NCBI GenBank assembly: GCA_028693565.1
Contig: JAQUVE010000012.1
Span: forward strand, 1-35,281
Direction: 5' to 3'
Length of the DNA: 35,281 nt
Origin: Sulfurospirillaceae bacterium
Lineage (GTDB): Bacteria > Campylobacterota > Campylobacteria > Campylobacterales > Sulfurospirillaceae
The translations under genes were made by a program, and so were the position numbers. The notes below the pieces were generated by a model. It ran no database searches and was not told where the DNA came from. It saw nothing but the letters and a program-made list of their open reading frames with translations. Positions 1 through 1,287 of this stretch are shown here, piece after piece (position 1 is the stretch's first letter; the number at the start of each line of letters is the position of its first letter).

Positions 1-1056
1 ATCTTCATCTTTTAAATCATAGCCCAAGCTTTTCAATTTATCTTTAAAAGCATGACGACCTGAATGTTTTCCTAAAACTATTGAGTTTTTATCAAGTCCT
101 ATATCTTTAGCATTCATAATTTCATAGGTCTGCGTATGCTTTAAAACACCATCTTGATGTATGCCACTCTCATGGGAAAACGCATTTTTACCTACGATGG
201 CTTTGTTAGGTTGAGGCTCAAGTCCAGTGATAGAAGATACTAATTTACTTGTTGGATAAATCTCTTTAATATTAATATTTGTATCAAACTGCGAGAAATG
301 GTCTTTTCGCGTCTTTAAGATCATCACAATCTCTTCAAGTGCTGCGTTCCCTGCGCGCTCGCCTAAACCATTAATCGTACATTCAACCTGACGTGCTCCA
401 TTTTCAATACACGCCAAAGAGTTTGCAACGGCTAATCCCAAATCGTTGAGGTTATGTACAGAAATAATGGCTCTATTGCCTACAAACTCATGTAGAGACT
501 TAATGATATCACCCATTTCATTTGGTAAACGGTATCCTACAGTATCGGGGATATTAAGCGTAGTAGCACCTGCTTGAATAACAGCGTCAAGGACTTCTTT
601 CATAAAACTCACATCGCTACGACCCGCATCTTCACAACTAAACTCAATATCATCACAAAAAGTTTTGGCATACTGAACCGCTTCAACCGCTTTTTTAATC
701 ACTTGATCGGGTGTCATTTTAAGTTTATATTGCATATGAATTTGACTGGTAGCAATAAAGGTATGAATACGTCGCATTTTTGCTTTCGCAACAGCCTCAC
801 CCGCCGCTTTTATATCTTTTTCTAAAGACCGTGCTAAAGAGCATACCGTACTTTTTGTAATCATTTCACTAATGCGTGCTATCGCATCAAAATCACCTGG
901 ACTTGCTGCAGCAAATCCTGCCTCGATGACATCTACTCCCAATTTTTGTAATTGTAAAGCAATTTGGATTTTTTCTTCAGTATTCATTGAAGCACCTGGG
1001 CTTTGCTCACCATCACGTAATGTTGTATCAAAAATTTTAATAATATTATCATTCAT
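1..1056 (-). CDS. leuA: 2-isopropylmalate synthase, 3' end outside window
   Basis: Condenses acetyl-CoA with 2-oxoisovalerate, the first committed step of leucine synthesis, in the cytoplasm. It is missing from the ORF track because the window edge removes its stop; I translated it by hand. The 352 visible codons open with [21 protein letters not shown], which holds the DTTLRDGEQ substrate/metal motif (residues 10-18), and contain the metal-binding HNHNDLG (about residues 201-207) and GLGERAGN. The usual length is about 510 residues, so the C-terminal part and any leucine-binding regulatory domain lie outside. The start is ATG at 1056 with AAGGAT about 7 nt upstream. A 31-codon leader frame ending in Leu codons lies 51 nt upstream and suggests leucine-responsive control. 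The family call is secure; regulation is inference. Confidence 0.96.
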
Positions 1057-1107
1057 AGGACTATCCTTGTATTTGTTTTGTTATTGTGTTAAAAATGTAA
1101 AAGTTGA

Positions 1108-1203
1108 TTAGAAGAGGAGTTGGAGTTGCAGGAGAGCGTTTTTTATCTCAATTTTGGGCAAAATTTTGATAGATTTGATAATACCAATGTCTACGCTGTT
1201 CAT
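1108..1203 (-). CDS. putative leucine leader peptide (31 aa) upstream of leuA
   Basis: Small reading frame too short for the ORF track. It reads MNSVDIGIIKSIKILPKIEI then KNALLQLQLLF and stops with TAA at 1110-1108. It has 7 Ile, 6 Leu and 1 Val in 31 residues. Five of the last eight codons are Leu, written CTC CTG CAA CTC CAA CTC CTC TTC; CTC and CTG should be poorly used in such an AT-rich genome, where TTA and CTT dominate. A strong ribosome binding site (AAAGGAGAAGCG) sits just before the ATG. It follows the predicted promoter and precedes leuA by 51 nt. These are the hallmarks of an amino-acid-sensing leader, as in enterobacterial leuL. I see no clear intrinsic terminator between it and leuA, so control may act on translation or through Rho. 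The mechanism is inferred. Confidence 0.72.
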   Translation of the reverse strand: MNSVDIGIIKSIKILPKIEIKNALLQLQLLF

Positions 1204-1228
1204 CGCTTCTCCTTTCGAAAATAGTCTT

Positions 1229-1250
1229 CTTGTATACACTTGTATGCAAG
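1229..1250. promoter_or_regulatory. inverted/direct repeat at the leuA promoter, candidate operator
   Basis: cttgtatac-actt-gtatgcaag is an inverted repeat of 9 bp arms with one mismatch and a 4-nt centre. The same bases also form a direct repeat (cttgtatac at 1229 and cttgtatgc at 1239) with a 10-bp period, one helical turn. It lies just downstream of the predicted -10 box, across the expected transcription start of the leuA leader, so it could be a repressor site or a 5' RNA hairpin. No regulator can be named. Confidence 0.4.
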
Positions 1251-1257
1251 AGCTAAT

Positions 1258-1287
1258 ATTATACTAAATTTTTATGTGTTTTTGCAA
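1258..1287 (-). promoter_or_regulatory. predicted sigma-70 promoter of the leader-leuA unit
   Basis: On the minus strand TTGCAA (1287-1282) and a perfect TATAAT (1263-1258) are separated by 18 bp. The promoter lies inside the last codons of pssA, so leuA can be transcribed apart from the upstream ftsH-pssA block. The -10 match is exact; the -35 match is partial, as is usual in this phylum. Confidence 0.6.

Follow-up and report, generated by a model that had tools for sequence, protein, structure and literature searches.

The usual view of amino-acid leaders is that they count codons and that the peptide itself is irrelevant, and the leu operons of enterobacteria are known to carry a Leu-codon attenuator with an intrinsic terminator. 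Closer to the DNA studied here, Porcelli et al. (2013, PMC3847290) name LeuL in Campylobacter jejuni and report that most Epsilonproteobacteria with leu genes have an ortholog; their survey took in three Sulfurospirillum species. They describe C. jejuni LeuL as a peptide of 28 amino acids; the five Leu codons close to its end are of the kinds CUA, CUC and CUG, which make up 10.5% of Leu codons in that genome, and its RNAs reach just past the stop codon (PMC3847290). Ribosome profiling has since shown start peaks enriched by retapamulin on the LeuL of C. jejuni (Froschauer et al. 2025, PMC11955535); tBLASTn in the same study generally found LeuL only in C. jejuni and related Campylobacter, a narrow range that the sequences compared here explain, as the peptides differ between clades. 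The leuL leader analysed here is thus a known kind of element, already predicted in the phylum, and the remark of the first-pass annotation that it was not aware of leader control of leuA in Campylobacterota gives way to this 2013 prediction and to the initiation shown in 2025. Further afield, in TnaC of Escherichia coli a ribosome that parks on the leader covers the rut site beside it (PMC10941005), and the actinobacterial LEU element combines a pseudoknot with Leu codons that pair with the Shine-Dalgarno (SD) sequence of leuA (PMC1262725).

In the window, by which we mean the whole stretch of 35,281 nucleotides of Sulfurospirillaceae DNA that was analysed, leuL and leuA lie on the same strand (Table 1), with 5 nt between AAAGGAG and the leuL start and 51 nt between the leuL stop codon and the leuA ATG. 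The truncated leuA is identified by NCBIfam NF002086 (613 bits versus a cut-off of 532), and the nearest leuA, 98% identical, comes from a Sulfurospirillaceae MAG, the window itself belonging to a Sulfurospirillum genome. Searches of leuL against Pfam and NCBIfam gave no match, and a search against Rfam at a lax threshold returned sub-threshold noise only. Like C. jejuni LeuL, the window's leuL is a short frame before leuA, in the same phylum, with genome-rare Leu codons near its end, and it shows the general build of Campylobacterota LeuL: a length of 20–35 amino acids, an SD sequence, a place directly before leuA and rare Leu codons near the C-terminus. Translation has been shown for C. jejuni LeuL, and for the window's leuL it is predicted. 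C. jejuni-type relatives carry a different peptide (for example MKQIFEISNSVQQKSKDNTFNLLLQLSL) that lacks the LPKIEIKN core described below and lies about 100 nt from a leuA only about 56% identical to that of the window.

The predicted promoter of the leuL-leuA transcript is well conserved, with TTGC-AAA and TATAAT kept in 25/25 aligned Sulfurospirillum-type upstream regions. The 5'-terminal stem-loop of this transcript folds with −7.3 kcal/mol (z −1.6), and a strong hairpin is predicted directly behind the −10 box of many Sulfurospirillum leuL transcripts (L001, L004, L007, L116, L125 and others). The 5' hairpins of relatives reach z values down to −7.1 and have sequences that are quite different between species; several relatives have none. 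The palindrome CTTGCATACAAGTGTATACAAG near the promoter was considered as an operator and rejected, because its sequence varies among relatives and only some hairpin recurs.

Table 1. Features of the leuL-leuA region, in positions of the window.
Feature	Positions	Strand	Basis or remark
leuL leader frame, 31 codons, MNSVDIGIIKSIKILPKIEIKNALLQLQLLF	1108..1203	minus	ATG 1203-1201, TAA 1110-1108
Shine-Dalgarno AAAGGAG of leuL	1209..1215	minus	sequence; nearly invariant among relatives
leuA, 2-isopropylmalate synthase	1..1056	minus	start at 1056; truncated by window edge
Shine-Dalgarno AAGGA of leuA	1064..1068	minus	sequence
sigma-70-like promoter of the leuL-leuA transcript, TTGCAA-18 nt-TATAAT	1258..1287	minus	consensus scan 10/12; predicted
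5'-terminal stem-loop of the predicted transcript, TCTTG.ATAC-AAGT-GTAT.CAAGA	1228..1251	minus	sequence; fold
peptide core IGIIKSIKILPKIEIKNALL, pattern GxxKxxKxLPKIEI[K/R]NxLL	1129..1188	minus	profile search, pN/pS
predicted stall site, invariant Leu codon pair CTC CTG	1129..1134	minus	codon conservation
further Leu codons CTC. CTC CTC plus TTC, variable C-ending tail	1111..1125	minus	codon counts
proposed rut (Rho loading region), unstructured RNA rich in C and with hardly any G	1067..1140	minus	C minus G

The first-pass annotation had described a 31-codon frame with a strong ribosome site before leuA, and both its coordinates and its counts were confirmed: Ile, Leu and Val make up 14 of the 31 residues, and five of the last eight sense codons are Leu (CTC CTG. 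CTC. CTC CTC). The supposed rarity of these codons was likewise borne out: among the 1160 Leu codons of the window's genes CTC and CTG account for 11.9%, and they form five of the six Leu codons of leuL (binomial P = 1.3e-4, for a statistic picked after the sequence had been seen). Since the codon statistic was chosen post hoc, control UTRs and conservation are the better evidence. As a control set we took 86 other genes of the same genome, each with 100 nt or more of space upstream; an SD-preceded frame of 15–45 amino acids with at least four Leu among its last nine residues occurred in 0/86 of their 5' UTRs. The leuL frame is real and not a product of chance.

We then compared the regions upstream of 191 leuA loci across the class, some of which represent the same genome from two collections. 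A Leu-ended frame lies ahead of leuA at most of these loci, in several unrelated peptide types, and in the majority of the families sampled leuA is preceded by a leader whose end is rich in Leu. The position before leuA, the Leu run and the rare Leu codons are kept across Campylobacterota, which is the conservation that the first-pass annotation had proposed to look for. Its reading of the frame as a Leu-responsive leader is well supported by this conservation, and that leuL is the Leu-responsive leader of leuA we regard as very probable. The Ile and Val richness did not hold up as a regulatory codon run; these residues belong to a peptide core, IGxxKxxKxLPKIEIKN, that is kept at the amino-acid level and had been overlooked.

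This core, with the pattern G-x-x-K-x-x-K-x-L-P-K-I-E-I-[KR]-N-x-L-L, defines one LeuL type, to which the window's peptide belongs. A profile of it matched 71 of 397 genomes (E 6e-14 to 7e-10), each time on the same strand as leuA and 62–301 nt before the leuA match (median 77). Ahead of other genes in the 397 genomes no copy was found, the next match (E 0.0018) being noise. The matches fall in five families of the search (f1, f3, f9, f11 and f12), and named loci with the core include members of Sulfurospirillaceae, Campylobacteraceae and Nitratiruptoraceae. The leaders of S. cavolei and S. diekertiae, both of them cultivable, were among those compared and carry the core. In a leuA tree built by a quick method, a well-supported branch separates the core type, which is confined to one side apart from a few losses or replacements there, from the Sulfurovum-type leaders on the opposite side.

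Across 73 distinct cores, LPKIEIKN has a pS of 0.83 and a pN of 0.04 (pN/pS 0.047), and the 20-codon core within Sulfurospirillum has a pN/pS of 0.074, a ratio that alone cannot separate an arrest peptide from a small protein acting after release. Synonymous variation is seen in the Ile (ATT/ATC/ATA), Pro (CCC/CCA/CCT) and Leu (TTA/TTG/CTT) codons of the core. As judged from these substitutions, selection holds the core as a peptide and not as DNA. The conserved residues GxxKxxKxLPKIEIKN stand at a fixed spacing ahead of xLL, and the segment that follows xLL is 0 to 9 residues long across relatives. Many Campylobacterota LeuL peptides, including the C. jejuni type, have no such core, so that some Leu leaders do without it. 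A search of the available paper texts for LPKIEIKN found none that contains it; within these bounds and those of the family searches, the conserved core, the fixed CTR codon and the terminator-free, C-rich design appear to be undescribed.

Codon choice at the end of the frame is conserved as well. Among 76 distinct leaders, 75 have CTG or CTA as the second of the two invariant Leu codons, whereas in leuA these two make up 7.5% of Leu codons. The amino acids after the LL pair vary; at the third positions of Sulfurospirillum tails, C occurs in 64/90 cases and G in 0/90, against 15.5% C and 18.2% G in leuA. CTC, CTG and CTA together make up 81% of the tail Leu codons in the core class versus 16% in leuA, and 75% versus 14% where the leader has another peptide, with CTC preferred in Sulfurospirillum and CTG/CTA in Campylobacter. 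The tail of the window, LLQLQLLF, is shared with locus L001 and differs from the usual Sulfurospirillum LLQ[NHK]LL[SFC][LF]; in the tails of L111 and L001, residues are altered and the C-ending codons are retained.

The genome encodes tRNA-Leu with the anticodons UAA, UAG (on two contigs), GAG and CAA, and no CAG tRNA-Leu was found in the assembly. The decoding of CTR would hence fall to tRNA-Leu(UAG), provided that the assembly has not simply missed a CAG gene. Equating a rare codon with a rare tRNA proved only partly true, as CTC would share tRNA-Leu(GAG) with the common CTT. Because one tRNA-Leu(GAG) would read both CTC and CTT, the CTR codon appears to be the better candidate for a stall.

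The first-pass annotation had proposed no readout for such a stall. Between the Leu codons and leuA, the RNA is rich in C and nearly free of G: C minus G over 70–78 nt from the Leu codons is 18–19 in the window and 17.1 on average in Sulfurospirillum, compared with a mean of 0.5 in the 86 control 5' UTRs (99th percentile 12, maximum 12, none at 18 or above), an excess that is partly a by-product of the CTC codons and only a rough predictor of Rho loading. In 21 Sulfurospirillum species the leuL-leuA spacer averages 1.8% G and 18% C, against 16% G and 12% C in the control 5' UTRs, and the spacer of the window has no G in 39 nt. This C-rich, G-poor, unstructured RNA at and after the leader end is what is expected of a Rho-dependent leader attenuator, and the genome encodes the RNA-binding domain of Rho (E 1.2e-29). 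The stretch looks like a Rho loading site, with the proviso that an excess of C over G is no proof of Rho.

A terminator hairpin was found neither in the window nor in the Sulfurospirillum leaders that share the core; as the segment from the Leu codons to the leuA SD sequence is nearly devoid of G, no G-C hairpin can form in it. The fold from leader to leuA was no better than that of shuffled sequences (z +0.72), and by the same comparison no alternative antiterminator structure emerged. Like the enterobacterial leuL attenuators, the window's leuL has a run of Leu codons in a leader before leuA, and it differs from them in lacking detectable terminator and antiterminator hairpins, in its conserved non-Leu core and in its C-rich, G-free spacer. 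In these tests it fails as a classical attenuator with an intrinsic terminator.

Starting from what was directly seen, namely the frame, the conservation of the core and the Leu codons, the linkage to leuA, the lack of a detectable terminator and of leuA SD sequestration in this species, the excess of C over G and the rho gene, we infer that the ribosome stalls, that the nascent chain is required for the stall and that Rho reads it out. When charged Leu-tRNA is ample, the ribosome would pass the Leu codons, finish at UAA (1108) and depart, exposing the C-rich, G-free RNA; Rho would then load and end transcription before or early in leuA. When it is short, the ribosome would halt on the invariant CTC-CTG pair (1134-1129), a halt that the chain KxLPKIEIKN in the upper exit tunnel may stabilise; the parked ribosome would cover about half of the C-rich stretch, Rho would load poorly, and leuA would be transcribed. 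With CTR in the A site, LPKIEIKN would span about residues −2 to −9 counted from the P site, in the upper tunnel and constriction, where known arrest peptides act. In leuL, conserved nascent residues do stand at a fixed distance from the presumed stall codon.

A leader that stalls at Leu codons, with the nascent chain assisting and Rho as a TnaC-like readout, is in our view the best explanation overall, and we give it an even chance of being right. Its parts differ in strength: conservation suggests that the chain probably acts in the ribosome, and a readout through Rho in Sulfurospirillum is tentatively proposed from base composition, at somewhat less than an even chance. Against Rho, a ribosome at codon 24–25 would not shield the whole of the C-rich stretch, and against a uniform mechanism, Campylobacter g6 leaders build a hairpin on their Leu codons instead. 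The stronger form, in which LeuL is a true arrest peptide whose KxLPKIEIKN halts the ribosome at CTR when free or tRNA-bound leucine runs low, and so blocks Rho in a terminator-free attenuator of five Campylobacterota families, seems rather unlikely. TnaC and leuL are alike in the proposed logic, with a ribosome hiding an adjacent rut and conserved nascent-chain residues; in TnaC the signal is free Trp, sensed at a stop codon, and the operon served is catabolic, and no sequence similarity to leuL was seen. As ligand, codon and peptide differ and arrest by LeuL is putative, we do not class leuL as a relative of TnaC.

In leuL, selection on the peptide exceeds that on most of the codons, the peptide keeps a constant distance to the Leu codons that follow it, and the usual hairpin is missing. 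Should the stalling, chain-assisted leader with a Rho readout prove true, tRNA-charge sensing, nascent-chain arrest and Rho would be joined in one leader of a biosynthetic operon, which would explain leu attenuation without a terminator in AT-rich Campylobacterota as well as readouts that seem to depend on the genus.

An alternative is translational attenuation, in which the Leu-codon run pairs with the leuA SD sequence and a stalled ribosome sets it free. CTCCTC is complementary to AGGAG, and the LEU element, which like the window's leuL has a Leu-rich leader before leuA and no obvious terminator, pairs its Leu codons with the leuA SD sequence (PMC1262725). In the window, however, no stem that sequesters the leuA SD sequence was found, and the pairing probability of the Leu tail with it is 0.00; the value is below 0.2 in most relatives and at least 0.6 in 2/28 species, so that such pairing, not being conserved, was rejected as a general mechanism. 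The tail is instead predicted to pair with leuL's own SD sequence, with a probability of about 0.7 in most core-type species, which renders translational attenuation unlikely. By this modelling the window's leader does not conform to the SD pairing of the LEU element, and a leader-leuA pseudoknot is unlikely given the near absence of G from the spacer. Within the window, the predicted partners are the leuL SD region (AGGAGA.GCG, 1209-1215) and the Leu codons CGCUCUCCU (about 1131-1140). This pairing could limit re-initiation at leuL, and is partly trivial, CTC-CTN being anti-SD-like.

LeuL might also function as a small protein once released, with LeuA or some other protein as a possible binding partner; the Leu run would then be only part of its end. 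Purifying selection at the amino-acid level and a single copy that always adjoins leuA would suit such a protein; the variable length after xLL, a Leu codon identity held tighter than a protein would need and the fact that the leuA of other Campylobacterota works with unrelated LeuL peptides speak against it, and we find it quite improbable.

A further rival is a plain attenuator that counts Leu codons and has an ordinary intrinsic terminator, here hard to see. In its favour are the enterobacterial precedent and the C. jejuni LeuL RNAs that end just past the stop codon (PMC3847290). It also has the Campylobacter g6 leaders, in which the hairpin TGCTAC-TTAG-GTAGCA, with Leu codons in its 5' arm, is followed by U-rich RNA. 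In g6 species with a different peptide, the hairpin GCTGCT..AGCAGC is likewise followed by U-rich RNA. For the window and its Sulfurospirillum relatives such a terminator is nonetheless very doubtful, in view of a spacer nearly without G, in which no G-C hairpin is possible, and of a fold energy no better than that of shuffles. In the Campylobacter-type hairpins (loci L163, L166, L168, L181, L187, L190, L195, L196, L203 and L220), the loop holds the last codons, and the hairpin persists although the peptides differ. From these sequences the readout seems to differ by lineage, with a hairpin in Campylobacter g6 and the C-rich stretch in Sulfurospirillum.

Translation of the leader could alternatively shield the mRNA from ribonucleases or expose it to them, acting on stability and not on termination. 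Hairpins at the 5' end affect mRNA stability, and many relatives have one at the predicted transcript start; the spacer, moreover, is long, unstructured and U/C-rich. Yet several relatives keep leuL without a 5' hairpin, and we assign a low probability to this reading. Finally, a chance frame without function, for which it can be said that short frames are common, is already refuted by position, peptide and codon choice conserved over five families and by the lack of a similar frame in the 86 control 5' UTRs.

Beyond the core type, the Sulfurovum-type leaders (TIFTKDSxLLLLxL; L040-L079, L155, L158, L165 and L183) carry a strongly conserved, promoter-like block between leader and leuA. It reads TTAACC-N-TTTAGGTAAAATTAGACAATT, and contains an ACC/GGT inverted repeat with paired changes (ACCC/GGGT, ATCC/GGAT). 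Insertions of about 100–230 nt separate leader and leuA at L026, L027, L153 and L018; L018 and L027 have a similar hairpin in common, CGTGC..GCGAGG plus a U-run, with the look of a repeat or terminator that was inserted. In genus g14 (L235-L244 and L247), LeuL is of the C. jejuni type and ends in ..FNLLLQLSL, next to a leuA about 56% identical to that of the window, which suggests that in these genomes leuA was replaced together with its leader.
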